Origin: Yersinia ruckeri ATCC 29473
GTDB lineage: Bacteria; Pseudomonadota; Gammaproteobacteria; Enterobacterales; Enterobacteriaceae
Length of the DNA stretch: 64,000 nucleotides
Assembly (NCBI RefSeq): GCF_000754815.1
Contig: NZ_KN150747.1
Coordinates: forward strand, 1,705,908 to 1,769,907
Direction: 5' to 3'
The notes under the pieces were generated by a model that saw nothing but the letters and a program-made list of their open reading frames with translations, was not told the origin of the DNA and did no database searches. Position 1 is the first letter of the stretch. The number at the start of each line of letters is the position of its first letter. This document shows positions 44,620 to 62,926 of this stretch, piece after piece. The position numbers were made by a program, and so were the translations under genes.

Positions 44620-44696
44620 GCGCCCTTAGCTCAGTTGGATAGAGCAACGGCCTTCTAAGCCGTAGGTCACAGGTTCGAATCCTGTAGGGCGTACCA
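44620..44696 (+). tRNA. argU: tRNA-Arg (anticodon TCT)
   Basis: The 77-nt gene folds into a full cloverleaf with GCGCCCT/AGGGCGT acceptor stem (G1:U72), anticodon stem ACGGC/GCCGT, and encoded CCA. The anticodon TCT at 44654-44656 reads AGA. It corresponds to E. coli argU, which is also next to folD and is the DLP12 prophage site. An integrase follows directly, so its 3' end is the likely attachment site here. Confidence 0.98.
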
Positions 44697-44891: not shown

Positions 44892-46106
44892 ATGGCATTA
44901 ACCGATGTGAAGGTAAGAAGTGCAAAGCCCACGGATAAGCCTTATAAGCTTACTGATGGCGAAGGCATGCATTTAATGGTTCATCCTAATGGTTCTAAAT
45001 ACTGGCGCTTACAGTACCGCTTTGATGGTAAACAAAAGATGTTGGCGTTGGGTATCTATCCTGAGATTTCGTTATCTGAAGCCAGGCAGCGGAGAGATGA
45101 AGCTAAGCGGCAAGTCGCAAACTATATCGATCCCAGCGAACAGAAAAAGGTTGAGAAACAAGCTCGCAAAGTGACAGTGGAAAATACCTTCAAAGCTATC
45201 GCATTAGAATGGCATGAGTACAAACGTCCTAACTGGTCGAAGGGTTATGCTGAAGACATTATGGAGGCGTTTGAAAACGATATCTTTCCGGATATCGGTA
45301 AGCGCCCAATTGCAGAGATAAAGCCTCTGGAGATCCTTAGTTCACTTCGCAAACTCGAAAAACGTGGTGTACTCGACAAGTTGCGCAAAATCCGTCAGGC
45401 CTGCAACCAGGTGTTTCGTTACGCTATTGTCACTGGTCGAGCTGAAAGTAACCCAGCCTCAGAGTTGGCAAGTGCATTAACCCCGCCAAAATCTGTTCAT
45501 TACCCTCATTTGCTAGCGGATGAACTTCCTTCTTTTTTAGAGGCTCTCACCGCTTACTCCGGCAGCCCAATAACTCGGCTAGCAACAAAGATTCTGATGT
45601 TGACGGGAGTTCGTACCGTTGAACTTAGAATGGCCGAATGGAAAGAATTCGACTTCGATAAGCGAGTTTGGGAAGTACCGGTAGAAAGGATGAAGATGCG
45701 CCGCCCACATCTGGTGCCATTGTCCGATCAGGTAGTGGGAGCACTACGTGAAATCCATGCTGTGACTGGTCGCTACAATCTGGTATTTCCTGGGCGTAAC
45801 GACATCACTAAGCCGATGAGCGAAGCGAGTATTAATCAGGTACTGAAAAGGGTGGGGTATCACGGGAAGGCGACTGGCCATGGTTTCCGGCACACGATGA
45901 GTACTATCTTGCACGAACAAGGCTATAACACGGCGTGGATCGAGTTACAGCTTGCTCATGTGGATAAGAACACCATTCGTGGCACGTACAACCATGCTCA
46001 ATATCTGGAGCAGCGTAGGGATATGTTGCAGTGGTATGGGGATTATATTGACAAACTAGAACTCGGTGGGGGTGTGGTTCACGGGGAGTTTGGTAGCCGA
46101 GCCTAA
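44892..46106 (+). CDS. P4-type tyrosine recombinase (integrase)
   Basis: The 404-aa protein integrates and excises elements at tRNA genes. The N-terminal arm-binding domain (MALTDVKVRSAKPTDKPYKL, DGEGMHLMV) is typical of the P4/CP4 family. The catalytic residues are in place: Arg in LTGVRTVELR, HGFRHT for the HxxR box, and the nucleophile Tyr in IRGTYNHAQYLEQRR. It lies 195 bases after tRNA-Arg in the same direction, the standard arrangement. It appears complete and functional. Confidence 0.97.
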   Translation: MALTDVKVRSAKPTDKPYKLTDGEGMHLMVHPNGSKYWRLQYRFDGKQKMLALGIYPEISLSEARQRRDEAKRQVANYIDPSEQKKVEKQARKVTVENTFKAIALEWHEYKRPNWSKGYAEDIMEAFENDIFPDIGKRPIAEIKPLEILSSLRKLEKRGVLDKLRKIRQACNQVFRYAIVTGRAESNPASELASALTPPKSVHYPHLLADELPSFLEALTAYSGSPITRLATKILMLTGVRTVELRMAEWKEFDFDKRVWEVPVERMKMRRPHLVPLSDQVVGALREIHAVTGRYNLVFPGRNDITKPMSEASINQVLKRVGYHGKATGHGFRHTMSTILHEQGYNTAWIELQLAHVDKNTIRGTYNHAQYLEQRRDMLQWYGDYIDKLELGGGVVHGEFGSRA

Positions 46107-46558: not shown

Positions 46559-46593
46559 AAAAAAGTCAGTTACCATTAATGGCAACTGACTTT
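46559..46593 (-). terminator. Terminator of the NERD-kinase-helicase operon
   Basis: On the minus strand AGTCAGTT pairs with AACTGACT (inner GCCATTAATGGT also pairs), then TTTTTT. It lies just after the stop of the 500-aa gene. Confidence 0.85.
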
Positions 46594-46597
46594 GATA

Positions 46598-48100
46598 TCA
46601 GCGATTCAAGCTAAGAATAGGTCTGGTAGCAGGCCGAGATATGGGAATGGTTAGCCAGTTTTGTGGTAGCAAATCTTGGATTTTGTCTGGGGAATTTGTC
46701 CCTTTGGAAGAGGCCCAAGTACAATTCAAATTGCTGAAGTCGCCGACTCTAGATTTAAACAATAATTCCAAGTGCTTAATCCGGTCCGGGTCTTTGGTCA
46801 TGTACCCAATAGGCAAACTCACCCCGCTATCGGTATTAGGTTGACCATGGTACTGAATCAGGCCAAAAATGTCGGGAATTACAAACAACTCGAGTCGATC
46901 GAGGGCTAACGGGGTCGACAAACCACATGGGAATATATTCTTCAGGTACTGTCGTACATCCCAGTGTCCACCTTGATGAATTAGGGATACTTTTGCATCG
47001 CTATCTTTCTGCTCAAGAATGCTTTTGAGATCCTGAACAAAGCGATCTATGTCTTCTGAGTTGGCCCCCCAAAATGGAACATTGCTCGGCATCCACAGTG
47101 CTTTTAGATCTGTAACTTCATCCTGCTCGTGTAGTGTTTTACGAATCCATTGCAACGCATCACGCCGATTTTCAAGTAGATATAAGGGTCCAAATACACC
47201 ACGCGTATCAGTCGAGCCATAACCAGTCTTGCTCTCATCTCGGGCAAGCATCCAACGTGAGTAGTCTACCCGGTATCCGTTGACAAAATTTTTCAACACG
47301 TGGTCATTAGCTAATTGGCAGTAAGTTTCCGCATCTGTGCCTTTTTCTTCGATGTAGTTCGAGCCAAGGAAATCTGCGATATGGGCTTCCAGCTTACTGC
47401 TGAGGGGGCGACTCTGGTTAGGGCCCAGCCGTTCAGCGGAGCGGATCAACTGTTTTGGCTCACCCTTAGCCTGCTGATAGGTGAACTCAATATCGACTGC
47501 TAGCTGAAGTACATCACTAGCACTGCTGCCCATCACTTTGTAAAGTTGGGTACGTTGACGTTCGTGCTCGTTGTTGCGAGTGATTTCTAGATGGCTGCGG
47601 AACTGTCGACCGAATTCTTCAATGATTTTATCCATTCCTAATCCCTTTGCGGATTCGGGCATGGCAAGCTCTGGTAGACCGAACATCAACCGACTCAGCC
47701 GCTGTTCTTTACGTACTGTCAAAGCGAAAGCGTCAAGTATTACATGTTCGGTCTGCTCGTTGTATTTAACCAGCATTGGTACGCCATCACCATAACCGAC
47801 CTGACTCTTTAACAGTGGACTGGGGACTAGGTAACCTTGGTTATCCAATGCGGCTAGGCGTTTATCTTCTAATGAATTAAGCAACTCTTCTTCTTCTCGC
47901 TCCGAGAGCCCGAAGAATTCACGGAGCTCGAGGGGCAACATCCGTTCAAAGAGTATAAGTAGTCGGCAAGCAAATAGCTCAATGGCAGGCATGGGCTTTT
48001 CTTCGGTCCATGCTACGTTCATGATGTATTTTCGGGCGGGAATCAGGATGGTGATGCGGTTCCCAACACGAGCTTTAGTATCTGTAGAAAGCGAGATCAT
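46598..48100 (-). CDS. Unknown 500-aa partner of the NERD-kinase-helicase protein
   Basis: I do not recognise this family. The N-terminal part (about residues 36-95; ILFERMLPLELREFFGLSER, then LVPSPLL) looks like a winged helix preceded by a short beta region. The middle is charged and helical (NNEHERQRTQLYK), and the C-terminal half is mixed alpha/beta with no catalytic motif I can name (WMPSNVPFWGANSED, HQGGHWDVRQY). No TM helix or signal peptide is visible, so it should be cytoplasmic. Its ATG overlaps the stop of the 1664-aa gene by four bases (ATGA), so the two are made together and probably act together. A terminator follows immediately, closing a two-gene operon. A defence role is inferred from context only. 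Confidence 0.8.
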   Translation of the reverse strand: MISLSTDTKARVGNRITILIPARKYIMNVAWTEEKPMPAIELFACRLLILFERMLPLELREFFGLSEREEEELLNSLEDKRLAALDNQGYLVPSPLLKSQVGYGDGVPMLVKYNEQTEHVILDAFALTVRKEQRLSRLMFGLPELAMPESAKGLGMDKIIEEFGRQFRSHLEITRNNEHERQRTQLYKVMGSSASDVLQLAVDIEFTYQQAKGEPKQLIRSAERLGPNQSRPLSSKLEAHIADFLGSNYIEEKGTDAETYCQLANDHVLKNFVNGYRVDYSRWMLARDESKTGYGSTDTRGVFGPLYLLENRRDALQWIRKTLHEQDEVTDLKALWMPSNVPFWGANSEDIDRFVQDLKSILEQKDSDAKVSLIHQGGHWDVRQYLKNIFPCGLSTPLALDRLELFVIPDIFGLIQYHGQPNTDSGVSLPIGYMTKDPDRIKHLELLFKSRVGDFSNLNCTWASSKGTNSPDKIQDLLPQNWLTIPISRPATRPILSLNR

Positions 48101-51100
48101 ACTGGTATGCCTTCCTTGTTGAATTCAAGAGTCGTAATCATCTGGTAATGGCTATTGTCTTGTATTGCTCGCTCAGTGATGTATTCATACACTGAGCCCA
48201 ATGCAGAGTCATTGTTATCTTTACGCCACATCCTGCCAGCCCCAAGGATAACTAAGCGCTCCTGGGCACGAGAAATAGCTACGTTGATTCGAGGCGTATC
48301 CCGCAAAAAGCCCTGCAGGGCGTTGGGATTGTCCCGCACTAAGCTAAGAATGATGATCTTGTTTTCCTGACCCTGGTAAGAATCGACAGTGTCGATCCGG
48401 ATTAGGTGACGCAGCGGGCCCATCCACTCAGCTTGATTGAGCTGAGTCTCAATCTCATTTTTTTGGGCTCTGTACATGGTAATGATACCGATCGGATGAG
48501 GGTGTTCATTTGTGACCGTTCGTTGCAGGTGTTCAACAGCATCTGCATCTACTAGCACTCGCAACGAATGCAATAACAAATCTATTTCATGCTGGTTGGT
48601 GTAGCCAGGTTTAGTCTGTTTCTCACCCTGCTCAGAGGTTGTATCGATCCAGCTAACCCCCTTGTTCCATGGGGCGGGTAATTCATCGAACCATGCCTTG
48701 GCTGGTCCTCGTCCTGTGTGCAGCTTACCAATATCATCTGCGTAAAAACAGGCTGAGACTAGATCGCCTATGGGTTCAATCATTCGGTATTGTGTATCCA
48801 GAGTCACTCCACCACATGCATTGAAGGCCCGCTCGAAATCAGATTCCACGAAGGCTTCTTTGCTCACATCGAGTAGTTTGCTGGCGTGTTTTATATGCCC
48901 ATTCTGGTAAAATGGTGGTAACTGCTTATGATCGCCCACCAATAAGACGCGTTTTGCACTTTGCAATGCAACCATCAACTCACTGGCCTGAGCACGGCCA
49001 GCCTCATCGACAATAACCCAATCAAATTGGCTCTGATCCAACTCTAAACTGCGACGTCCAACCCCAACGAGTGTACCGCAGGCTAATTGTTTGGTTTTCA
49101 GCATAAAGCGGTCATAGCCAGCCTCTCCAGAGCGCAGGACATCGAGCCACTCCTGACTTAGGGATAACAATCGATGCAGGCGATCCACCTTGACGGGGTT
49201 GTTCACTCCATGGCTCTGAGCCAAGATTTGAAGTAGCTTGTCTAGTAACAGCTCACTATTTGTTGGCAACTCGCCAAATGCACTGTTGAACTGCTGGCGG
49301 ACGATTGTCTCAATTGTTTCCACCGTCTGATTTCTTTGGTGCGTTAATTCCACTAACTGGCTCACATGGATCTCATTGGACTCTCCGCCAGTGCGCACCA
49401 GCTTTTCTCGCTGACGTTCATACTGTCCTAATTGCACCAACAAAGGAGCTAGACTACGGTGTAATCGCGTTGCATCTTGAACCAGCTCATGTGGTAGCTG
49501 TAGTCGGGTGGAGAGGGCGCTAACCCGTATGTCATATTCCCGGTGAAACTTGTGGCGGATCTTCTGCTGCAAAGCTCGGGTATGTGTAGGCAGCATACGA
49601 TCATCGATCAGCGATTCATTGCCAATTCGAATAGTATCCAGTTCCAGACCCTTGTCAGAGCAAAGCTCTCTCGCCTTTATCGCGACGTTATCCACCGCTG
49701 AGTGCTGTTGGCCCACCAGTAAGATGTTGTTCATACCGGCATGTTCAAACAGATAGTGGATGAATTTACTGACAAAAGTAGTTTTACCAGTACCTGGCGG
49801 TCCTTGAAGCACACCGACAGGGCCTTGTCCTACTAAGAACTGAAATGCTTCAAGTTGTTTATTATTTGTTTCCTGTCCTGGAACATCGTACAACTCCCGC
49901 AGTTTCTGAACTGTCGGACGATCCGCCATTTCTCTCAGGGCTGGTTTTTGTCTGGTATCAAAATAGTCAGCCAAGTTGGGTATGAGCGACTTTTTCGTCA
50001 TAACCCGGTTCAGAGCCTTAAGTCTCAGATCCCTTGATGATTTGCTGCGAATGGATTCTAGTTGAAGTGATTTTCCGGGTATAAACTGCTTACTAGCCCA
50101 ATGGTTAACCGGCTGTATCGCCATATAGCTACCGGTCGTCTCGTTGATCAAGAGCTCACCAAGCTTTTCATCTGACTTAGGCTGATAGATATAGTAGGTC
50201 TCATCTGCATCGATCTGCAGATCCCGTCCATCGAGGCACAAATAGGGGTACATCGGGTATCCACTATCGCTGACTTTTTCCTCAACGTTAGATTCAATTT
50301 GAAAGCTTTGGCGAAGTTGCCCTTCCGTATCAGCCAACGCTTTCCATAATTTATCTGGGGACAACTCCAAGCGCTCTTCATCCGTCAAAGGAACGTCATA
50401 AACTTCCTCGGAAAGACTGAATTGCTCAATAATGGCATCAATCACAGCCTCCATGCTTAGAATTGCATCAACCAGAGTGCACTGCTCATCTAGAGGGCCA
50501 TTTTGCAGAGCAATAGGCCGGGATAGTCGCCCAACAGAACGCCGTTGGGCGCTGACTACATCACTCAGTGGAATAGAAGCTGTGTGTCGGACTTTGGTTA
50601 TTTTACGTGCTTCAACATCTAGGTTTACTTGTAGATAAGCTGTATTACCCGTAATAAAACAAGCAAGTTCTTTAGTAGGGCCGTGGACTCGGCTATTAAC
50701 CCATTTGCAGTTGAAATAGTAACCGCCGTCGATTGTGTCCAAAAGTGTGGGCGCTGTCGGAAAGCTGTTAGCTCTCCAGCTCAACAAAATAGGTTCTTTT
50801 TTTTCAATCTCTGCTTGTTCTGACTGTTCTGACTGTTCTGACTGTTCTGACTGTTCTGGCTCTAGGGCTGTATGCAGTGCATTGAGCAATGGGGTAAGAG
50901 AGACTGGGATTTGAGTTTGATTGTCACGAGCTCTAATGAATTCCTCTTGAACTTTCGGTGGCAATTCTCCTGCGAAAAGCTCTTCGACGATCTTGAAGAC
51001 GGCACATCGGTCACGACCATAGGCATCAGTTATGGCAGGGTTTGATGGCCCATACTCAGTATTAAACGCCTCCGTTTCACTACCGTAATCGAGCACGTCT

Positions 51101-53091
51101 ACAAGCATGATTTTCTCGGCATTGCAGTCTTTCACAAGAATATTCTCTGGATGTAGATCTCCATGGGCAAATCGCTTTTCGTGAAAATCAATTACGGTAC
51201 TAACCAGATTAATTGCAAGATCCCGCTTGTCTTTTTGAGACAATGTAAGATCCAATAGATAACTTGGCCAAGTTTCACCTTCCACATATTCTGTAGCGAC
51301 AAACAGCCCCTGAGGATTCATTAAACCGAAGTCCACGATCTTTGGAGTTGCTAAAGTGGCGTCCTGGAACTGTTCCAGACGTTTCAGAAACTGTAGTATT
51401 CGACGGTTGGAGCCGGGTTGATTTCGAGAGACCTGAACGTTGTCCCACAACTTCACAAGCATTTCCTGGTTATCTTTATGAGCCAAGAAAGCCTTCTTGC
51501 TGCTCCCGCTGGCTAAGGCCTTGAATGCATCCTGAAGCTTATCTGGTGAAGGGGGAAAGGCCTGTAGTATTAAGTATGGTGTGAGATCTTGGCGTCGGTG
51601 GGGGCTGTGCATCAATTGCTCAAAGATCTGTTGGGAGTCCTTATCTTCTGCAGGGCACGTTCCGGTGAGGGAGTTGAACTCTGTCAGCATGCTAGGAGCA
51701 CCTTCAAAGCGTTCAACTGCATCCCAAGAGAGAGCTTTTTCAAACCAAGAGTTCAGTAGGCCATCGAAAGGATCGTTTACGGGAATGGTCCATTCGGGGA
51801 CTCCATCCACTTGCTCAAGCTTCTGATTGAAGCAGATCTGATAAGCCACTGAGGCCAGTAGGAAGACATCAATACGAAAAGCATCAATGATGTCACCTTC
51901 ACACATAGCATCTTCGGGCAATGCGACTGGTGAACTTTGAAGCAATTTTCGATGTTCGGCCACTGTTCCAGATTCGGGAAAAAATGCGGCGCCAAAGCCA
52001 GATGCCAGAATACTATCGTGATTGTTGGCATACCAGAGGTTGTGTGGGTCAACATCACGATGAGCAATGTTCAACGCATGTAAGTCAGCAAACGGGGCCA
52101 AAAGCGCTCGTACGCGATCCATCCGTTGCTCCCTTGACCAGGCTGCAGAATCACTAGCGATGACTTCATCCAAGCGCTCGGTATTTCGAGGCAATTCATA
52201 TAACTCACAGAAATCCTCCGTGACGTCATCGATGGAAACGTCGTTGACGTACCTAAGCAGGTAATCACGCATATTGCTGTTATCGCGAATGAATTTGCCT
52301 ATCCGATTTTCACGGAGGGCAATATCAGCCCAGGTCGATTGTAAGGCATGCAGGGTACCTAATTGATTGAAGTCCCAGCGGCGGATCAGTCCCTTCGCTG
52401 AGGGCATTGACCGGTCTTGAGCCAAGTATTCCTTGTAGATTGAGTTTCGGTGAGCAAACCAAGATTTATTCGTGTGAGCCTGAAAGTTACCAACAACAAG
52501 CTCTTTTTTCTGAATCTTTGGGCCTTCGATAAATTTGTAGATGATCTGCAGGGATTTTTCAGAGTTTGGCCTCGCTTTCCCGGTTGAGTTGAAGAATCCG
52601 GCCAGTTTTTTATTGGCGACGAGAGTGTCATACTTTTCAGGAGCTCGAATAGCAAGAAACTCATCCAGTGAGTGAACGAAAGGCCTTTCTATGAGGGGAA
52701 GATTTTCTGGAGTAGCGTTTCCGCATAGTACAACATGGGCCTCTACGGTGAGCCAATAACCGAGGTTGTGTGACAACTCTCTATCAAGTAGCTTCTGTAG
52801 GCGTAGGGCATGTTCTCGTTTGATAGCAAAAGGGCTTTTGCCACGGTTTTGGCCATTCTGGATCCACATCCCATTGTCATATTCGATTATACCATTCCAC
52901 TCTTTCAGCTCGACCAAAAGCAGACGGTCATGAGTAATTATAAGGCAGTCGATTTCCATTGGCCCTTGAGCATCCGACGCAACCAACCCCGCAAATCCGT
53001 GCCAGCTGCTTTGAAACTGCTGCTCCATTTTACTGATTGCCCTAAGCTCACTTGCGTGAAGTCCAGCTCCACCCACTTTTTTTATGTCCAT
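48097..53091 (-). CDS. NERD nuclease - pseudokinase - protein kinase - SF1 helicase fusion
   Basis: This 1664-aa protein joins four modules. Residues 1-150 form a NERD (PD-(D/E)xK) nuclease domain with EIDCLIITHDRLLLVELKEW, holding the catalytic Asp and ExK. Residues about 210-470 are kinase-like: HRDVDPHN (344-351) is kept, but SGFG replaces DFG, so it is probably a pseudokinase. Residues about 515-745 look like an active kinase: VKLW lysine (K547), HGDLHPEN (643-650) and DVLDYG (665-670). A SEQ-repeat linker follows. Residues about 1075-1620 are a Upf1-like SF1 helicase: GPPGTGKTT (1097), VDEAG (1361), GDHKQLPPF (1386), DSYQGQE (1570) and NVAISRAQER (1603). N-terminal NERD plus kinase recalls BREX PglW, but PglW lacks a helicase. 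I cannot assign it to a named system. It is next to hsdMSR and likely anti-phage. Confidence 0.9.
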   Translation of the reverse strand: MDIKKVGGAGLHASELRAISKMEQQFQSSWHGFAGLVASDAQGPMEIDCLIITHDRLLLVELKEWNGIIEYDNGMWIQNGQNRGKSPFAIKREHALRLQKLLDRELSHNLGYWLTVEAHVVLCGNATPENLPLIERPFVHSLDEFLAIRAPEKYDTLVANKKLAGFFNSTGKARPNSEKSLQIIYKFIEGPKIQKKELVVGNFQAHTNKSWFAHRNSIYKEYLAQDRSMPSAKGLIRRWDFNQLGTLHALQSTWADIALRENRIGKFIRDNSNMRDYLLRYVNDVSIDDVTEDFCELYELPRNTERLDEVIASDSAAWSREQRMDRVRALLAPFADLHALNIAHRDVDPHNLWYANNHDSILASGFGAAFFPESGTVAEHRKLLQSSPVALPEDAMCEGDIIDAFRIDVFLLASVAYQICFNQKLEQVDGVPEWTIPVNDPFDGLLNSWFEKALSWDAVERFEGAPSMLTEFNSLTGTCPAEDKDSQQIFEQLMHSPHRRQDLTPYLILQAFPPSPDKLQDAFKALASGSSKKAFLAHKDNQEMLVKLWDNVQVSRNQPGSNRRILQFLKRLEQFQDATLATPKIVDFGLMNPQGLFVATEYVEGETWPSYLLDLTLSQKDKRDLAINLVSTVIDFHEKRFAHGDLHPENILVKDCNAEKIMLVDVLDYGSETEAFNTEYGPSNPAITDAYGRDRCAVFKIVEELFAGELPPKVQEEFIRARDNQTQIPVSLTPLLNALHTALEPEQSEQSEQSEQSEQAEIEKKEPILLSWRANSFPTAPTLLDTIDGGYYFNCKWVNSRVHGPTKELACFITGNTAYLQVNLDVEARKITKVRHTASIPLSDVVSAQRRSVGRLSRPIALQNGPLDEQCTLVDAILSMEAVIDAIIEQFSLSEEVYDVPLTDEERLELSPDKLWKALADTEGQLRQSFQIESNVEEKVSDSGYPMYPYLCLDGRDLQIDADETYYIYQPKSDEKLGELLINETTGSYMAIQPVNHWASKQFIPGKSLQLESIRSKSSRDLRLKALNRVMTKKSLIPNLADYFDTRQKPALREMADRPTVQKLRELYDVPGQETNNKQLEAFQFLVGQGPVGVLQGPPGTGKTTFVSKFIHYLFEHAGMNNILLVGQQHSAVDNVAIKARELCSDKGLELDTIRIGNESLIDDRMLPTHTRALQQKIRHKFHREYDIRVSALSTRLQLPHELVQDATRLHRSLAPLLVQLGQYERQREKLVRTGGESNEIHVSQLVELTHQRNQTVETIETIVRQQFNSAFGELPTNSELLLDKLLQILAQSHGVNNPVKVDRLHRLLSLSQEWLDVLRSGEAGYDRFMLKTKQLACGTLVGVGRRSLELDQSQFDWVIVDEAGRAQASELMVALQSAKRVLLVGDHKQLPPFYQNGHIKHASKLLDVSKEAFVESDFERAFNACGGVTLDTQYRMIEPIGDLVSACFYADDIGKLHTGRGPAKAWFDELPAPWNKGVSWIDTTSEQGEKQTKPGYTNQHEIDLLLHSLRVLVDADAVEHLQRTVTNEHPHPIGIITMYRAQKNEIETQLNQAEWMGPLRHLIRIDTVDSYQGQENKIIILSLVRDNPNALQGFLRDTPRINVAISRAQERLVILGAGRMWRKDNNDSALGSVYEYITERAIQDNSHYQMITTLEFNKEGIPV
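50816..50860 (-). repeat. 9-bp in-frame tandem repeat encoding Ser-Glu-Gln
   Basis: Four perfect TGTTCTGAC units and one variant encode EQSEQSEQSEQSEQ in the linker between kinase and helicase modules (about residues 746-760). Copy change keeps the frame, so linker length can vary. Confidence 0.95.
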
Positions 53092-53207: not shown

Positions 53208-56200
53208 TCAGCTATGAAGGTACTTCTTGAAGTTCTCCGCCTGCTCTAGCACGCTCTTGTAGACTGCATCGTTGGCTACCGGTGGGAAACCATAGCGGTG
53301 TAATAGCAAGATAAGATCTACTTTCAGCTTGGCCTTGATATCGTCGCGGTTGCTCCAGTCGGGGTACTGGGCGCTGTCGTCGACAATAACCTTCATATCC
53401 TTGGCCAATTCCAACATCTTATCCTTGTCATAGGTGAAATCGTACTTCTCACACATATGCGCCAGGATATCGAGAAAGGCTTTCTCTTCCATATCGATGC
53501 CAATATCGGCGAACGACATCATCTCGGTCTTAATGTCGTAGATCATGTCGGCCATCTGCTGGGTGAAAGTATCGAACTCTTCACCGTTGAGCACGTCGTT
53601 CTCTTTACGCTGATTATACTGTTCAACCAATGCCTGGAAACGCTTGGAGAAATTGATGCCCTGAAGCTGGTTCACCTTTTGAAAATCACTAATAGCTTTT
53701 GCCAGCATCTTTTGCAGCAGTTGCATCCGGGTATTAGGCAACTTGATCTTGCCAATGCGAGCCATGTACTCATCATCAAAGATGTCGATGGTCTCAGCTT
53801 TATCTTCGCCTAAGGTGAAGATCTCCTCTACTCCTTCAGCCTTGAGTGCCTCGGCAATCATCTCACGCACTTTCTGATTCATCTGCGCGGTGTCTGGCGC
53901 ATCGCCCTTAGTCAGCTTGAAGACGATAGAACGCACGGCCAGATAGAAATGAATTCGCTCTCGCTCATCCTGAGTGATCTCTTCACTGCCAACGCAAACG
54001 TCATAGGCGGCTTTCAGGCGTTTCACCAATCCCATAAAGCGCAACTCAATCTTCTTGGTCTGCAGCGCAAACTCGGCGGCCCGGTTGAGGCATTCCAGCT
54101 GTAAGGTCGGCGCGGCAGAGAAGTAATTGCGGCTATCGAAAGTATGGAACACCTGAGCAAGCAGATGCAGGTGATTACGCACCTCAATCAGTGACTGTTG
54201 GACATCTTCAAAGTTGGATTTATCAGCCTTCGAGTACATGGCCAATGCCATGTTCATCCGGCTTTTAATGCCGATGTAATCGACTACCAACCCCTTTTCC
54301 TTACCCTCAAACCGGCGGTTTACACGCGAGATAGTTTGGATCAGGTTGTGCTTTTGCAACGGTTTATCGATGTATATTGTATCAAGTTCGGGCACGTCAA
54401 AGCCGGTCAGCCACATGTCCACCACAATCGCAATTTTGAAGTTGGACTTAGGGTTCTTGAACTGTTTGTCCAGCTCACGGCGGTACTCCTTAGTACCGAG
54501 CAAGTTATACATGGCCTCATCATCATCTTGGCCCCGAGTCATTACCATGTTGACCAGAGGAAGACTCATCAGTTCTTTTTTCTCTTGCTCGGTAAGGGTG
54601 ACACCATCGATAGCCTGTTTCGCCTCGAACCAATCGGGGCTCTGTAGCTTCAGACTCTTATAGAAATCGTAGGCAATCTCCCGGCTGGCACAGACAAACA
54701 TCGCCTTACCTTTGATGGTCGAACCTTCCGTCACCCGTTTTTCGTAATGCTGTGCGAAATCCTTGGCCAATGCTTCGATGCGATCCGGATCGCCCAAGAT
54801 GGAATTCATATTGGCCGTGGTTTTCTTGCTCTCTTCAATCTGGTGTTCACTGGCACCTAACTTTTCGCATTCTTGATAGTACTGCTCGATCTCTTCCAGC
54901 CTGCTGTTATCAAGCACCACTTTGGCCGCTCGTCCTTCGTAGACAATTCGCACCGTGATTTCATCATTAACCGATTCGGTCATGGTGTAACTATCGATGG
55001 TGGGGCCAAATACATCCAGAGTGGCGTCGATAGGGGTGCCGGTAAAGCCAACATAGGTCGCATTAGGCAGCGAGTCGTGCAGATACTTAGCAAAACCATA
55101 GGTTTTCTTCACTGTGCCGCTCTCAGCGTCGATGCTGATCTTAAGGTCGAGGTTAATCTGGCTGCGGTGGGCTTCGTCAGAGATACAGATGATGTTGCTG
55201 CGACTGGAGAGCAGTTGAATATCTTCAGTGAATTTATGAATGGTCGTGAGGAATACCCCGCCGCTGGCGCATCCGGCCAGCTTGTCCCGCAGATCCTGAC
55301 GGCTGGTGACCGGTTCAATCACTGCATCTCCGATAAAAGCGGTGGCATTGCAGAATTGCTTCGCGAGCTGTTCATCGAGATCGGTGCGGTCGGTAATGAG
55401 AACAATGGTCGGACTGGCAAAATCGACGCTCTTCATCAACAACCGGGTAAGAAACTGCATGGTATAGCTCTTGCCGCAGCCCGTGGCACCAAAGTAGGTT
55501 CCCCCTTTACCAGTGCCACCGATATTCTCGCCGTTGGCCGCTATCTGCTTGCGCTCTTTTTTAATGTTGTAGTAAAGCTTACGGGCGGCGTAGTACTGCG
55601 GATAGCGACAGCAGATCTTCACTTCCTGTTTGCTGGTGTCTGGGAAGAAGACGAAGTTCTTCAACACGTCCAGCAGACGGACCGGATGAAATAGCCCTTG
55701 GATCAGGGTGTAGAGACCATTGATGCCATCTTGCTCTGTGGACTCGTTACCGTTCACCTTGCGCCAAGCGTAGTAGAACTCGTAAGGAGCAAACAGGTTA
55801 CCTAGCTTATTGTTAACTCCGTCACTGAGAATACACAGAGCGTTATAGACAAACAGCTTAGGAATGTCGCGCTTGTAGCGCACGCATAGTTGGCGCCAGG
55901 CGTCATAGGTGGTGGCCTCTTCTTCCCGTACCGCCGATTTAAACTCGAAGACTACCAGCGGCAAGCCATTCACATACAAGATGGCATCGGGGATACGCAG
56001 TTGCAGCCCGCCGTCACGGGTCTGTCCTTCTATCTCTAGTTGACTAACCAACCGGTAGATATTATTGCCCACCTCGACCATATCTTCGCCATGCCCTGTA
56101 AATAAGCTGGCTAACTGCTCTGACAAGGTGCTGGTATCCATCAGCTCGATATAGAGGTCTTTCTTATTACGATCTTCACGTTTAAGTAAAAAGCCGTTGC

Positions 56201-56489
56201 TGAGCCAGTGGCAGAAGGTTTTATTGCTCTGGTAGAGATCGCTGGCAGGCAGTGTCTGCAACTGATGGAGGATGTGAAAAATCTCCCCTTCCGTGATCCC
56301 CTCAGCCTGATACTGGTTGACGAGAAACTGGCGCAGGTCATCCGTAATAAGCACTTCACTTTTATCGATGCGCGGCACATTGCTACCGACAAAATGAGGG
56401 TAACAGGATTGGCCTTCCGCATTCGAGTGCTGCCCCAGTAGGGAGATAATGGCCTGTTCCAGCTTCGCTTCCGTGAAAATATGGCTCAT
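53208..56489 (-). CDS. hsdR: Type I restriction enzyme motor/endonuclease subunit HsdR
   Basis: HsdR translocates DNA and cuts at a distance when the HsdMS complex meets unmodified sites. The 1093-aa protein has the N-terminal PD-ExK nuclease (PDAILYVNGLPLVVFEFKSA, with D, E and K), Walker A (GATGCGKSY), DEAH (ISDEAHRSQ), and later SF2 motifs (GFTGTPID, DMWLTGFDVP, QTISRVNRR). Length is in the usual range. It is complete. It lies downstream of the interrupted hsdS, so its expression may be reduced by polarity, because the IS is in the opposite direction. Confidence 0.96.
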   Translation of the reverse strand: MSHIFTEAKLEQAIISLLGQHSNAEGQSCYPHFVGSNVPRIDKSEVLITDDLRQFLVNQYQAEGITEGEIFHILHQLQTLPASDLYQSNKTFCHWLSNGFLLKREDRNKKDLYIELMDTSTLSEQLASLFTGHGEDMVEVGNNIYRLVSQLEIEGQTRDGGLQLRIPDAILYVNGLPLVVFEFKSAVREEEATTYDAWRQLCVRYKRDIPKLFVYNALCILSDGVNNKLGNLFAPYEFYYAWRKVNGNESTEQDGINGLYTLIQGLFHPVRLLDVLKNFVFFPDTSKQEVKICCRYPQYYAARKLYYNIKKERKQIAANGENIGGTGKGGTYFGATGCGKSYTMQFLTRLLMKSVDFASPTIVLITDRTDLDEQLAKQFCNATAFIGDAVIEPVTSRQDLRDKLAGCASGGVFLTTIHKFTEDIQLLSSRSNIICISDEAHRSQINLDLKISIDAESGTVKKTYGFAKYLHDSLPNATYVGFTGTPIDATLDVFGPTIDSYTMTESVNDEITVRIVYEGRAAKVVLDNSRLEEIEQYYQECEKLGASEHQIEESKKTTANMNSILGDPDRIEALAKDFAQHYEKRVTEGSTIKGKAMFVCASREIAYDFYKSLKLQSPDWFEAKQAIDGVTLTEQEKKELMSLPLVNMVMTRGQDDDEAMYNLLGTKEYRRELDKQFKNPKSNFKIAIVVDMWLTGFDVPELDTIYIDKPLQKHNLIQTISRVNRRFEGKEKGLVVDYIGIKSRMNMALAMYSKADKSNFEDVQQSLIEVRNHLHLLAQVFHTFDSRNYFSAAPTLQLECLNRAAEFALQTKKIELRFMGLVKRLKAAYDVCVGSEEITQDERERIHFYLAVRSIVFKLTKGDAPDTAQMNQKVREMIAEALKAEGVEEIFTLGEDKAETIDIFDDEYMARIGKIKLPNTRMQLLQKMLAKAISDFQKVNQLQGINFSKRFQALVEQYNQRKENDVLNGEEFDTFTQQMADMIYDIKTEMMSFADIGIDMEEKAFLDILAHMCEKYDFTYDKDKMLELAKDMKVIVDDSAQYPDWSNRDDIKAKLKVDLILLLHRYGFPPVANDAVYKSVLEQAENFKKYLHS

Positions 56490-57072
56490 GGCAATGGCTT
56501 CTTCTTCGTTTTGTGGTCGGTATAGCCGATCAGTAATAACCGCCTCACCATAAATAAATCGTGTGGCGTTAGGAGGGTTTATGCCAATACTTCGTCTGCG
56601 GTGTCGACCTCACTATCGCTAATGCGCAGATCACCGGAGATTAGTTTGGGTAGCAAGGTATCTCGGAGTTTGATGAGCTCGGAGTTCTGTTGACGGTTTG
56701 ATACCTGCTTTTCAGAAAATGACTTAAATGATCGCTCTGCTTTCTCTGCAATATCAAATGGCGGTAAAACCACGAATTGCTCTGATAGAATTTTACGACT
56801 AAGTTCTGTTTGTCCAGTGCTTCCCTCGCCCAGTCGCTCAATTAATGCTTCCAGAGAAAGCATTAATTGACCAAAAGTAAAAATAGGGCATGCATTATCA
56901 CTCACCCTTACGACAGTGACATGCGAATCAGCAACTGTAGTTTCAGATAGATGAGTTACTTGTGCTATCCGCCCCAAGGTTCCAACCCCTGTAGAATTAA
57001 CTAATACTGAATAGACCCGGGTTTCGTAGACACTTTTTTGCCTCATAATGGAGGCCTAATGAAGGAGTGTTT

Positions 57073-57371: not shown

Positions 57372-58223
57372 ATGTCGACCTTTTATGCGGTACGCCGGTT
57401 GTGTCTGGTTCTTGGCCTCCATTACAGCGGTTATTACCAGTGGCTAAAACGGCCTCAATCTCTGCGCGCCAGGCAAGATGAGCGCCAAACAGGCCTCATT
57501 AAACAACTGTGGCTTGAAAGTGGTACGGTTTATGGTTATCGAAAAATCTGGCTCGACATGAAAGACTTGGGTGAGCGAGCTGGGCGTAACAGGATCGCGC
57601 GCCTAATGAGGCTTGCAGAGTTGGCTTCTCAAACCGGATATCGGAAACGCCGCTATTACGGCGGCGGAAAAACATCAGTTGCCAACCCTAATTACCTTGA
57701 ACGCCAGTTCATTGTTCCTACCCCCAATACGCATTGGGTGAGTGACATGACCTATATCAGAACGCATGAGGGATGGTTGTATCTGGCCGTTGTTCTCGAT
57801 CTTTTCTCGCGTCGGGGTATCGGCTGGAGTATGGGGGGGCGAATGACAGCAGAGCTGGTGATGGACGCCTTGTTGATGGCAGTGTGGCGACGTAAACCAA
57901 CGGCAAAAGTACTAATCCATTCGGATCAGGGCTCGCAATATACGAGCGAAAGATGTCAGCATTTTATGACCGCTCACAATTTAAAAAGCAGCATGAGTCG
58001 CCGAGGTAATTGCCATGATAACGCGGTGGCTGAAAGCTTTTTTCAGTTGCTAAAACGAGAACGCATAAAGAAACGGATCTATAAAAATAGAGAAGAAGCG
58101 AAGGCGGATATCTTCGATTATGTAGAGATGTTTTATAATGCTAAACGGCGTCACAGTGCCTGTGAAGATCAACCACCTGCAGTTTATGAAAGTGCCTGGT
58201 TCATGAGGCACGCAACCGTCTAG
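57372..58223 (+). CDS. IS3-family transposase OrfB (DDE catalytic part)
   Basis: The 283-aa protein has the integrase-core DDE residues in NTHWVSDMTYI (D), HSDQGSQYTS (D) and NAVAESFFQLLKRER (E), plus the N-terminal HTH_21 region. It is read mainly as the OrfAB fusion through -1 frameshifting. No stop or deletion is visible, so the IS may still be active. Confidence 0.95.
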   Translation: MSTFYAVRRLCLVLGLHYSGYYQWLKRPQSLRARQDERQTGLIKQLWLESGTVYGYRKIWLDMKDLGERAGRNRIARLMRLAELASQTGYRKRRYYGGGKTSVANPNYLERQFIVPTPNTHWVSDMTYIRTHEGWLYLAVVLDLFSRRGIGWSMGGRMTAELVMDALLMAVWRRKPTAKVLIHSDQGSQYTSERCQHFMTAHNLKSSMSRRGNCHDNAVAESFFQLLKRERIKKRIYKNREEAKADIFDYVEMFYNAKRRHSACEDQPPAVYESAWFMRHATV

Positions 58224-59217
58224 GAAACTGGGGTCTATTCATACATCACCGAGTTTAAGTGCTCTCCCATCAGTTCTCTTTGCTTCTTGATCATGACGGC
58301 GAGCTGGTTCATAGGATACCTCGTGATTACGAATACACTTTTGATTAATGACTTGAACTCCACCCTCGTCGATATATTTTGGTGAAATACCACGACGTAA
58401 TTCGCTCGTTATCTCGCCGAGAATCTTTACTTTCCATCCTTTCGGCACCCAACCACCCAAACCAAGTGAAGGTTCGGAGCATTCCTCAAAAGCTGCAGGG
58501 AATAGCTGGCGGATATCCTCCGGCAAGGGTTTGAAGTCAGCACTTTCACGCACGGCTTTGCGGGCCTCTGCGCGGCGCAGCAACTCATCAGAGAACTTTA
58601 AATCCTGCTCGAAAAAGCCTGCATCCAACGCGTTATCGACTACGGGGTCAAAATCCACAAACCATGATTTAAAGAGCGCTTGTGCCATTAGCTCTAGGGT
58701 TTTGTTGATTTGGCGGTTGAGTGTGATTTTGTTATCAATTCCTCTTAACAATTTCGCACCATATTGCTGATATGTCAGCGGTGGAATTCTAATTGGAATT
58801 TCCTTTAGAGCCTTGCCTGTTAGATGCTTTATTGTCGTGCCTGTAAAAAATGGCTCAATATGGCCTGCTCGAGTAGAAAATAGGAACCAATAGTATAGAT
58901 ATTCACTATCCAACCCAGATAGCGTTCTTACTCGATGTAATGCCTTCTGAATCTTCATATTTGGGATCTCATCTTCCCAAATTGCACATCGTCCTGGCTC
59001 GCCACCTTCACAAATGATCAGGTCACCTTTTTTAAGCCCATAACGAGTATGTTCATGTGCTTCGAACTTCATTTCCGCAAGGTCATCAAGCTCAAATTCC
59101 CCCCACCTTACGTTACTGTTACCAAGGTAAGGATGGTATTCACCAGTATTTTTATTTTTGTCTAGCATTTTTCCTAGACAAGAATCGATGTAGTCACCTA
59201 ATTTGGCTTGCGTCCAA

Positions 59218-60822
59218 TCACTCTCCATAACCCAATGCCTCCATATTGGCACGAATCGCCTGATCCAGCGTTGCCGCTTCATCTAACTGTCGATAAAGAG
59301 TTTGGGTCAGTTCCTGCATCTTGGTTTCAAAAGCAATCCCATCATCCTCAATATCAGCAGCCCCGACATAGCGGCCAGGAGTCAGCACATAGTCGTTGGC
59401 CTTCATATCATCAAGAGTCGCGACTTTGCAGAAACCGGCCTGATCCTGATATTGCTCGACACCGATCTCGTTGGATTCGATACGGCGCTTGAGTTCGCTC
59501 TCGCTACTGCGCCAGGCGTGGAAGGTATCGGCTATGGTAGCGATATCCTCTTTAGTCAGCTCTTTTTGGGTACGGCTCACCATCGTGCCAAGATTGCGGG
59601 CATCAATAAACAGGGTCTCGCCGCGACGATCGCGATAGCCATATTGAGGGTTGGCTTTTTTGCTTTTGCTGATAAACCACAGGCAGACCGGGATTTGGGT
59701 GGTGAAGAACAGCTGTCCTGGCAAGGCAATCATGCATTCGATACGGTCATCTTCTATCAGCTTTTGGCGGATCTCGCCTTCACCGCTGGTATTCGAGCTC
59801 ATGGAGCCATTAGCCAGCACAAAGCCTGCAGTACCGTCTTCACTCAGCTTGGAGAGCATGTGCAGGATCCAAGCATAGTTAGCGTTGCCGGTAGGAGGAG
59901 TGCGAAAACCTGCAAAACGTGGATCGTTGGTGAGCTCCGCTTCGTTGCGCCAGTCCTTCAGGTTAAACGGTGGATTGGCCATGATAAAATCGGCCTTGAG
60001 GTCCGGGTGCTGATCGGCAAAGAAGGTATCAGCAGCACGCTCTCCCAGATTGCCGGAAAGACCGCGTACTGCCAGGTTCATCTTGGCTAACTTGTAGGTG
60101 GTGCTAGTGAGCTCTTGGCCGTAAATAGCGATGTCCCTGCTTTTACCCTTATGACTCTCGATAAATTTGAGGGACTGCACAAACATACCGCCTGAACCAC
60201 AGCAAGGGTCATAGATCTTGCCTTGATAGGGTTCGAGCATTTCAGCAAGCAAGGTCACCACTGCTTTAGGGGTGTAGAATTCACCACCGCCTTTACCTTC
60301 GCTGGCGGCAAACTTGCCAAGGAAATACTCGTAGACGCGGCCCACGAGGTCCTCTTCCGTCAGATCGCTTTCGTTGGCGAGAGTGTCGATATTCTCAATA
60401 CTATCGATGAGAGAAGCGAGCCTTTTCACCTCTAACCCCTGACGGGAGAAGTAGTTATCCGGCAGGGCACCTGTCAGCGACGCATTGCGTTTCTCTATAG
60501 TAGAAAGGGCCGTATCGATAATCACCGCGATATCATCTTGCTTCGCGCGGGCTTTGACAAAAGACCAGCGGGCTTCTGGGGGGAGGAAGAAAACGTTATC
60601 CTGCTGATAGAAAACATCCATATCGACAAAGGCTTCCTGGCCGTTATCGATTAACTGCTTGCGCTTGGCTTCGAACTTGTCGCTAATAAATTTCAGGAAT
60701 ACCAGGCTCAACACCACGTGCTTGTATTCGGAGGATTCCACGCTGCCACGCAGCTGGTTGGCGGTATCCCAAAGTGTTTCTTCGAAGCCTTTGCCAGCTT
60801 TCTTGGTTGGTGATTTAGCCAT
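59218..60822 (-). CDS. hsdM: Type I DNA methyltransferase subunit HsdM
   Basis: HsdM methylates adenine within the site chosen by HsdS. I set the start at 60822 (MAKSPTKKAGKGFEETLWDT), 534 aa. The open frame reaches 61068, but that extension lacks a ribosome site and family similarity. Motifs are the N-terminal helical domain, FYTPKAVV, the SAM motif DPCCGSGGMF, and the catalytic NPPF (IMANPPFNLKDW). It is type IC-like in size. hsdS starts within its last 11 bases. HsdM should be functional, but has no intact HsdS partner in this window. Confidence 0.96.
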   Translation of the reverse strand: MAKSPTKKAGKGFEETLWDTANQLRGSVESSEYKHVVLSLVFLKFISDKFEAKRKQLIDNGQEAFVDMDVFYQQDNVFFLPPEARWSFVKARAKQDDIAVIIDTALSTIEKRNASLTGALPDNYFSRQGLEVKRLASLIDSIENIDTLANESDLTEEDLVGRVYEYFLGKFAASEGKGGGEFYTPKAVVTLLAEMLEPYQGKIYDPCCGSGGMFVQSLKFIESHKGKSRDIAIYGQELTSTTYKLAKMNLAVRGLSGNLGERAADTFFADQHPDLKADFIMANPPFNLKDWRNEAELTNDPRFAGFRTPPTGNANYAWILHMLSKLSEDGTAGFVLANGSMSSNTSGEGEIRQKLIEDDRIECMIALPGQLFFTTQIPVCLWFISKSKKANPQYGYRDRRGETLFIDARNLGTMVSRTQKELTKEDIATIADTFHAWRSSESELKRRIESNEIGVEQYQDQAGFCKVATLDDMKANDYVLTPGRYVGAADIEDDGIAFETKMQELTQTLYRQLDEAATLDQAIRANMEALGYGE

Positions 60823-61611: not shown

Positions 61612-62232
61612 TTATCTGACACTCCCCCCAAATGAACGGTCTTCCTTGCTGTAGGCCTTGGTGTGTTCTTTAGCAAAGTAGCTCAGGTGGCGTCGTAATC
61701 CCAGGTACTGTTGTCCAAAGCGGTCCACCTGAAGACTCTCCAGATAATGTGGCGTGTTGTTGAAGGAAACCAGCGTTCGGTACTCAGGAAAGTCGAGTAG
61801 GCCTAATGCACTTAGCCAGGCCTCGCTGATATAGCTCCCCAGGTTATGGTCTTCCTTCGAATAATCCCCTAAACCATTGAAAGTATCTTTGTTAACGAAT
61901 ATCGCTGCGTGATAGTGAGATTTACCGCTGCTCCCTACCTCACGTACCCAGACGTATCTCAGGTCCGTTGGACATACCTGAGACTTTTCCCGTTTACGTC
62001 GTTGCTGATGGGCTGCTATACGCGCCCTCAGCGCCCCTGTGAAGCGTTCCATTAAACCGGTCTTCAGATTAGGGGTGCAGGCAATACTGTCACCTGTATC
62101 GCGGTACTCAGGCAGTCTGAGTACGAAGGTGAAAACGGATGTTCTGGCGTGGGCTTTTGTTGCTTTGCTGATGATTTCAGTAATACGACTCATATAGTCA
62201 GAGTTTAGGGGGCCAAATTTACTGTTGGTCAT
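61612..62232 (-). CDS. YagK/YfjJ family (inovirus Gp2-like) protein
   Basis: The 206-aa protein belongs to the YagK/YfjJ C-terminal family, often called inovirus-type Gp2 and thought to be replication-related in satellites. I set the start at 62232 (MTNSKFGPLNSDYMSRITEI) because CAGGAG precedes it. Motifs include FVLRLPEYRDTGD, VREVGSSGKSHYHAAIFVN and RHLSYFAKEHTK. It lies between the two alpA copies. Its own role in this island is inferred only. Confidence 0.8.
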   Translation of the reverse strand: MTNSKFGPLNSDYMSRITEIISKATKAHARTSVFTFVLRLPEYRDTGDSIACTPNLKTGLMERFTGALRARIAAHQQRRKREKSQVCPTDLRYVWVREVGSSGKSHYHAAIFVNKDTFNGLGDYSKEDHNLGSYISEAWLSALGLLDFPEYRTLVSFNNTPHYLESLQVDRFGQQYLGLRRHLSYFAKEHTKAYSKEDRSFGGSVR

Positions 62233-62926
62233 GAAGATTACTCCTGGGGCATATTTCAATCGTGCGCAGGCCCTGCCAGAGTAAATGGCAGCGATGGAGG
62301 CACGAATGAGGGTTAAAGTGACATTAAGTAGAAAGGCATGGTGCTGTAAGGTATGTGTCAACGGTCGATAATGAGAAACTTGACAGTGAATGCTTTTGTC
62401 AGTTGAATCTATGCGATGCAGAACAGAGGTGGGTTTAGTTATTGGTGGTCATCATAACTTAATGGATATCATAAGGTGTAAACTATGCTGTTATTATTAA
62501 TGATATCTATACCTTCCATTAATTATATTCCAAAAGTGTTTTTTAATGTGCCATGTAATATCCTCGGTGACAAAATTAATATGATTTCGTTTATTTTATT
62601 CACTCCTTAACTGGTTGGTTTTATATATTTAGCAATCCATATTCATATGTCTTTCTGTATATTTTATTGTGTATGCTTATCCATGTATGTAATATATATA
62701 CTGTATGGGAATAGGATGAAATTACTTTATAGTGCCTTGCAGATAGCGGTTGGACATATTTACTATGCTTAAATTTTACTCCAGGGTTATCAATTCAGAA
62801 CTTAAAAGAAAGCATTGTTTTCTGAAAGACCGGGAGCTCTCATGAAACCACTCCTGCTTAATCCATTTTGGGCTTCTGCTAGACCTCACTGGTGATGGTA
62901 CAGCCTTTCTTTTTTACCAACATGCT
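62233..62926. other. AT-rich non-coding region between the Gp2-like gene and alpA
   Basis: I see no supported gene here. The stretch 62500-62800 is strongly AT-rich, with repeated TATATA-like runs. It may hold a promoter for the Gp2-like gene or a replication or packaging site of a satellite element, but I can name no motif. Confidence 0.4.

Follow-up and report, generated by a model that had tools for sequence, protein, structure and literature searches.

Layout of the locus

Two adjacent genes, mkoA and mkoB, lie on the minus strand of a 64,000-nucleotide stretch of the Yersinia ruckeri ATCC 29473 genome (the window, by which we mean that whole stretch), where they sit between a tRNA-Arg gene with its adjoining integrase and a type I restriction-modification locus. 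The features are as follows.

44620..44696, plus strand: tRNA-Arg(TCT), probable integration site (ARAGORN)
44892..46106, plus strand: tyrosine integrase adjoining the tRNA gene (Pfam Phage_integrase, Phage_int_M, Arm-DNA-bind_3)
46562..46593, minus strand: 14-pair hairpin leading into a U run, likely intrinsic terminator 3' of mkoB (RNA folding)
46598..48100, minus strand: mkoB, 500 aa (open reading frame list and PADLOC match)
48097..48100, minus strand: four-base overlap ATGA of the mkoA stop and the mkoB start
48097..53091, minus strand: mkoA, 1664 aa (open reading frame list and PADLOC match)
48238..49869, minus strand: SF1 Upf1-type helicase core of MkoA, residues 1075-1618 (Pfam AAA_11/AAA_12; PDB profile matches)
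50872..51534, minus strand: kinase domain 2 of MkoA, about residues 520-740 (Pfam Pkinase 527-675; limits estimated)
51652..52506, minus strand: kinase-like domain 1 of MkoA, about residues 196-480 (motif columns in 18 MkoA sequences; limits estimated)
52726..53055, minus strand: NERD nuclease domain of MkoA, residues 13-122 (Pfam PF08378, 50.9 bits, cut-off 22.1)
53208..56489, minus strand: HsdR, restriction subunit of the type I system, immediately upstream of mkoA (PADLOC REase_I PDLC03040, 1384.7 bits)
61612-62361: YfjJ/YagK

The preliminary description of this DNA had reported two open reading frames coupled by a four-base overlap, directly beyond hsdMSR. Both reading frames and the overlap are present, HsdR adjoins the pair on the same strand, and the strand, left unstated in that description, is minus. 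The terminator placed after the second gene is supported by folding and not by the consensus terminator scan: the segment 46540-46605 (minus) folds with -25.4 kcal/mol (z -4.29, 0 of 200 shuffles equally stable), and the scan does not list the hairpin. Are these genuine genes? Against a Citrobacter relative (L014), dN/dS is 0.063 for MkoA and 0.076 for MkoB, rough values because synonymous sites are near saturation, and on this ground we regard both as real genes under purifying selection.

The pair probably belongs to a genomic island. A 16-mer in the 3' part of the tRNA-Arg gene (44674-44689) occurs exactly twice in the genome, both times on the plus strand, with the second copy at G000:C1:1776275-1776290 (L092:8376). 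Together the two copies would mark out an island of about 25.7 kb at tRNA-Arg, in which mkoAB and hsdMSR probably lie. In the neighboring restriction-modification locus, hsdS is split into an N-terminal part (58239-59282) and a C-terminal part (56579-57046), both on the minus strand, and an IS3-like transposase with rve domains (57372-58223, plus) lies between them. The specificity gene of the type I system next to Mokosh is thus interrupted.

The domain order first proposed for MkoA is borne out, and the motifs are present. The NERD domain carries E46, D48, E61 and K63. Kinase-like domain 1 keeps the HRD aspartate (D346), has S364-G-F-G, without an aspartate, in place of DFG, and places an arginine at the likely position of the VAIK lysine. 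Kinase domain 2 matches Pfam Pkinase over residues 527-675 (46.2 bits, cut-off 31.7) and has K547, D645, N650 and D665. The helicase is covered by AAA_11 (1075-1395, 150.7 bits) and AAA_12 (1416-1618, 147.8 bits), with the Walker A, Walker B, III, V and VI signatures all present. Nam7/Upf1, Sen1, Dna2 and Smubp2 are among its best 60 matches to PDB profiles, RNA and DNA enzymes alike, and the RNA helicases Nam7/Upf1 and Sen1 stand at the top. PMC10925250 assigns MkoA to the Upf1 clade, which agrees with the helicase seen here.

Identity of the gene pair

Does this pair constitute a new defence operon, as had been proposed? The PADLOC model for MkoA (PDLC03921) matches the large protein with E=0 and 1351.7 bits, over residues 1-1654 and profile positions 1-1600 of 1607. 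The MkoB model (PDLC03923) matches the small protein at 8.5e-60 and 201 bits, over residues 12-456 and profile positions 9-441 of 454. In 14 control genomes, the MkoA model matched something in 13 at E <= 0.001, presumably helicases, and the MkoB model in none. The MkoA model alone is thus unspecific, and the identification rests on its near-full-length score taken together with MkoB. Both components of Mokosh type I are found, MkoA with kinase and Upf1-type helicase and the adjacent MkoB, and NERD supplies the nuclease. For Mokosh type I, PMC10952713 (Table 1, after Millman et al. 2022) names two domains, NERD and a PLD-like one, which we treat as alternatives. Most probably the pair is an anti-phage system, Mokosh type I, in the form with a long, NERD-bearing MkoA; we give this reading a probability of about 0.92 from sequence comparison. 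Its genes, their order and the domain set are those of the long-MkoA type (PDLC03921 + PDLC03923), and we found no distinguishing difference.

That the pair is a defence operon therefore stands on the PADLOC matches to both genes, alongside the probable island context; its novelty does not. The preliminary description had itself named a defence-model match to both genes in order as evidence against a new system, and such a match exists, near full length for both, with NERD already a known part of Mokosh type I. An unnamed system, rejected here on this match, is now very improbable, even though no match above cut-off in Pfam or NCBIfam names a system and MkoB reaches the cut-off of no Pfam family. 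Slighter still is the chance that MkoA stands outside Mokosh as a stray relative of PglW (BREX) or MAD6 (MADS). Models for both align with its N-terminal half (PglW at residues 40-419, MAD6 at residues 9-639 with 108 bits), yet the NCBIfam scores fall far under their cut-offs (57.5 against a curated 990 for PglW, 108.4 against 460 for MAD6), while the MkoA model reaches 1351.7. For ten neighboring proteins, no BREX family appears among the best 25 each, pglX and pglZ are not among the families listed for these proteins within the window, and mad2 and mad5 appear only as weaker cross-hits of HsdM and HsdS. Membership in BREX or MADS is accordingly rejected on the NCBIfam scores, and the listed neighbors lend it no support. 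A literature search on MADS yielded nothing relevant.

The likeness to PglW is real within these limits. In the Streptomyces Pgl system, PglW is described with NERD at 12-130, an atypical kinase at 195-490 and a Hanks kinase given at one point as 537-704 and at another as 530-816 (PMC4365076), the same order and nearly the same spacing as in MkoA (13-122, about 196-480, about 520-740). The preliminary description had credited PglW with NERD and a kinase and no helicase, which is incomplete, since PMC4365076 gives it both an atypical and an active Hanks kinase. PglW differs in having no helicase among the motifs listed there and in its partners PglX, PglY and PglZ; the PADLOC PglW match to MkoA covers residues 40-419 only. 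According to PMC10853773, DndF can be fused to NERD and to a tandem of an inactive and an active kinase. MAD6 aligns over MkoA residues 9-639 and differs in that its model is 612 long and scores below cut-off. From these likenesses, MkoA seems to combine a front end of the PglW type with a Upf1-type helicase. A further likeness is to Dna2, in which a nuclease and a related SF1 helicase are combined and which is among the PDB profile matches. Dna2 is a housekeeping eukaryotic enzyme without kinase domains.

Distribution, conservation and related layouts

How widely does the pair occur? In the class, the MkoB model (PDLC03923) matched at 1e-10 a single genome out of 369, the window's own; in the order, it matched 11 of 295 at 1e-5, nine of them near full length. 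In the phylum it matched 7 of 398 at 1e-5, where, the sets overlapping, one further near-full-length match is new. A gene resembling MkoA adjoins all ten near-full-length matches, split over two reading frames in one of them (L033). Partial matches come from G648, G702 and G547, the last of which belongs with the longer PP2C/kinase operons discussed below. Among 72,556 plasmid records searched with tblastn, MkoB was found in 31 and MkoA in 320, 145 of these covering at least 80% of the query. In plasmid loci fetched by MkoA similarity, MkoB lies next to MkoA in 13 of 13 tested (L003-L008, L010, L011, L082-L085 and L087; L086 falls outside the MkoB count). Seven of the 13 (L003-L006, L008, L010, L011) were already among the MkoB matches and are for that reason not an independent test of pairing; the other six lie outside the listed part of those matches. 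At L082 the MkoB match spans two reading frames, and at L087 the MkoA match comprises the helicase part only. The recurrence of both proteins together, which the preliminary description had made a mark of a true system, is thus found in 10 of 10 genomic and 13 of 13 plasmid cases, with the seven pre-listed ones so qualified.

Several observations on individual loci accompany these counts. MkoA is carried in two reading frames at plasmid loci L006 and L010, an annotated IS3-like element lies inside the MkoA match in plasmid records H48 and H50-H52, and an additional NERD copy lies upstream (L011:4247-4864) in a plasmid-borne Mokosh locus. Parts of the DNA are shared by 68 of 5,426 E. coli genomes, none over 80% of the query. 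The one chromosome examined, that of E. coli EcPF14, carries both genes, with identities of 49% and 43% and both proteins PADLOC-named, near a CBASS cyclase. In viral contigs, the MkoB query gave four pattern matches and no relatives, and the MkoA alignment gave 23 loci with profile matches in the helicase region in all 23 and MkoB in none. One of the 23, on a contig classed as viral, is an MkoA-like stretch from kinase 2 to the helicase region at the contig end (L076:8252-10909).

Which parts of MkoA are held constant? We aligned 18 MkoA sequences, including that of the window, to which the others are 26-88% identical. Omitted were those with MkoA in two reading frames (L006, L010, L012, L033), one with the contig end inside the gene (L015), one of the short kind (L039), two fragments (L040, L042) and those fetched later (L082-L085, L087). 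NERD residues E46, D48, E61 and K63 are invariant in all 18, as are GPPGTGKT, DEA, GDH, Q1390, YQG, E1576 and SRA of the helicase, whose other motif positions vary. In kinase 1, E261, the HRD aspartate D346 and the arginine at the likely VAIK position are kept in 18 of 18, and the DFG aspartate is found in none (serine in 16, threonine in two). Kinase 2 keeps D645 in 18, N650 and D665 in 17 each and K547 in 14, this last column depending on a gapped alignment; K547 is replaced by arginine in L005 and L038, asparagine in L008 and cysteine in L037. The full K/D/N/D set is present in 13 of 18, the window included. In the intact MkoA of EcPF14 (L009:4773-9731), the equivalents of N650 and D665 are both replaced, so that both of its kinase domains look inactive.

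The mean majority fraction is 0.54 for the helicase, 0.50 for NERD, 0.49 for kinase 1, 0.44 for kinase 2 and 0.38 for the linker. Against L014, dN/dS is 0.041 for the helicase, 0.042 for kinase 1, 0.045 for NERD, 0.085 for kinase 2 and 0.115 for the linker, rough for the reason given above. Against V. hepatarius, where only dN is usable, the values are 0.186 for NERD, 0.096 for kinase 1, 0.198 for kinase 2 and 0.107 for the helicase; in this comparison the NERD domain overall has not evolved more slowly than kinase 2, and a simple ranking of the domains is undercut. The nuclease and the helicase look like the constant core of MkoA, and kinase catalysis less so. Because kinase 1 is, in both comparisons, as strongly constrained as the helicase while the DFG aspartate is missing, we infer a structural or switching role for it, not a catalytic one. 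The earlier suggestion that a pair of kinases implies signalling control is weakened to this extent: the DFG aspartate is missing from kinase 1 in all 18 sequences, and 13 of them have a complete kinase 2.

MkoB is harder to place. It has no Pfam match above cut-off, and NCBIfam is likewise silent; the preliminary description had called it unrecognised, which holds for these two collections and fails for PADLOC. Its profile found a single match in the PDB, CheF, with an E value of 0.17. Sub-cut-off Pfam matches to a few relatives suggest that it possibly has an N-terminal winged-helix domain. Its last 40 residues show a dN/dS of 0.54 against L014, a rough figure with synonymous sites near saturation. 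No PLD-like domain was found in the window pair by Pfam and motif search; the PLD Pfam match is found in 0 of 22 MkoB sequences and the HxKxxxxD motif in one (L038). Could MkoB be a degenerate PLD protein? We compared the one PLD-type MkoB available (L088) with the 22-member MkoB alignment by hhalign. This single sequence aligned weakly over an N-terminal stretch (E 0.09) and not at all in the PLD part; a second piece of 22 columns (E 0.65) is chance-like. With one sequence the comparison has little power, and it lends the idea no support.

L088:1790-7321 (genome G116) exemplifies the short-MkoA type (PDLC03920 + PDLC03922). Like the window pair, it has a kinase-like match and a Upf1-type helicase followed by MkoB; in this one example the NERD match is absent from MkoA (listed with 1260 aa, although its start codon is uncertain) and PLDc_2 lies on MkoB, whereas the window pair has NERD on MkoA and no PLD. 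At 1e-5, 111 of the 295 genomes from the order had a match to the PDLC03922 model, in almost every case confined to the PLD part; at 1e-25, the class yielded 1 of 369 (L088). By tblastn against plasmids, L088 MkoB gave no match, and L088 MkoA matched 207 records, none covering 80%. A third layout is seen in L039/L093, L089 and L090/L094, where a PP2C phosphatase, a separate kinase, an MkoA-like helicase and an MkoB-like protein are followed by large genes. These encode AAA_5 in L089 and L090. L093 gives a strong DUF2357 match, L089 one below cut-off and L090 none. A VWA match is clear in L094; that in L039 falls short of the cut-off. We take the AAA_5 partners to be McrB-like and the DUF2357 partners to be McrC-like, and the combination of VWA, PP2C and kinase presumably recalls the TerY-P triad; a literature search on a TerY-P-like link gave no paper. 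Nuclease swapping is possible on the basis of a single PLD-type example and the three longer operons. The shared core would be a kinase-fold module, a Upf1-type helicase and the N-terminal domain of MkoB, and the nuclease would be NERD on MkoA (the window pair), PLD on MkoB (L088) or the AAA_5/DUF2357 partners (the longer operons). That Mokosh and its relatives share such a core, with the pseudokinase-kinase module as a general gate licensing the attached nuclease, is a speculative proposal that we consider rather unlikely as it stands.

A possible mechanism and its meaning

How might such a protein act? A 2026 review (PMC12926258) places Mokosh among systems of unknown mechanism, and no mechanistic study is among the matches listed in our literature search on Mokosh, MkoA and MkoB. 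The parts list and its conservation are observed; from them we infer substrate, trigger and outcome as follows. The SF1 Upf1-type helicase would load on phage nucleic acid, move along it and feed it to the NERD PD-(D/E)xK domain of the same chain, which would cut it, with Dna2 as the parallel. The pseudokinase and kinase modules would restrain the nuclease and set its activation, with phosphorylation needed only in some lineages, and MkoB would serve as a recognition or adaptor subunit. We favor this helicase-guided nuclease, gated by kinase-fold modules and MkoB, tentatively and at somewhat less than even odds.

Might the target instead be RNA? The same Mokosh system could use its Upf1-like helicase to find phage transcripts, which NERD or a host RNase would then destroy. 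The rank of Nam7/Upf1 and Sen1 at the top of the PDB profile matches points this way, as does PMC11291487, which cites other work for the degradation of viral transcripts by Mokosh. Dna2 and Smubp2 are nevertheless among the same matches, and NERD is regarded in PMC10853773 as a domain that cuts DNA, so that we regard an RNA target as a doubtful though serious alternative. More doubtful again is a scheme in which kinase signalling is the core, with MkoA phosphorylating a protein of the host or the phage and a secondary part left to the nuclease. Kinase 2 is complete in the window MkoA and in 13 of 18 aligned sequences with it included, and its PglW counterpart in Pgl is required: the second kinase of PglW autophosphorylates, and the K677A mutant loses both autophosphorylation and phage resistance (PMC4365076). 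Against this, 5 of 18 MkoA sequences lack at least one of the four catalytic residues of kinase 2, the EcPF14 copy lacks the equivalents of both N650 and D665, and the four NERD residues are invariant by contrast.

The preliminary description was a sound observation of an already known system, and what is added here is the residue-level comparison. Correcting the claim of a new system prevents a duplicate name. The comparison also makes the unsettled mechanism of Mokosh testable, in terms of essential as opposed to optional domains: it predicts that defence would be lost in nuclease and helicase mutants across lineages, that kinase 1 would be non-catalytic, and that the activity of kinase 2 would be important only in some lineages.
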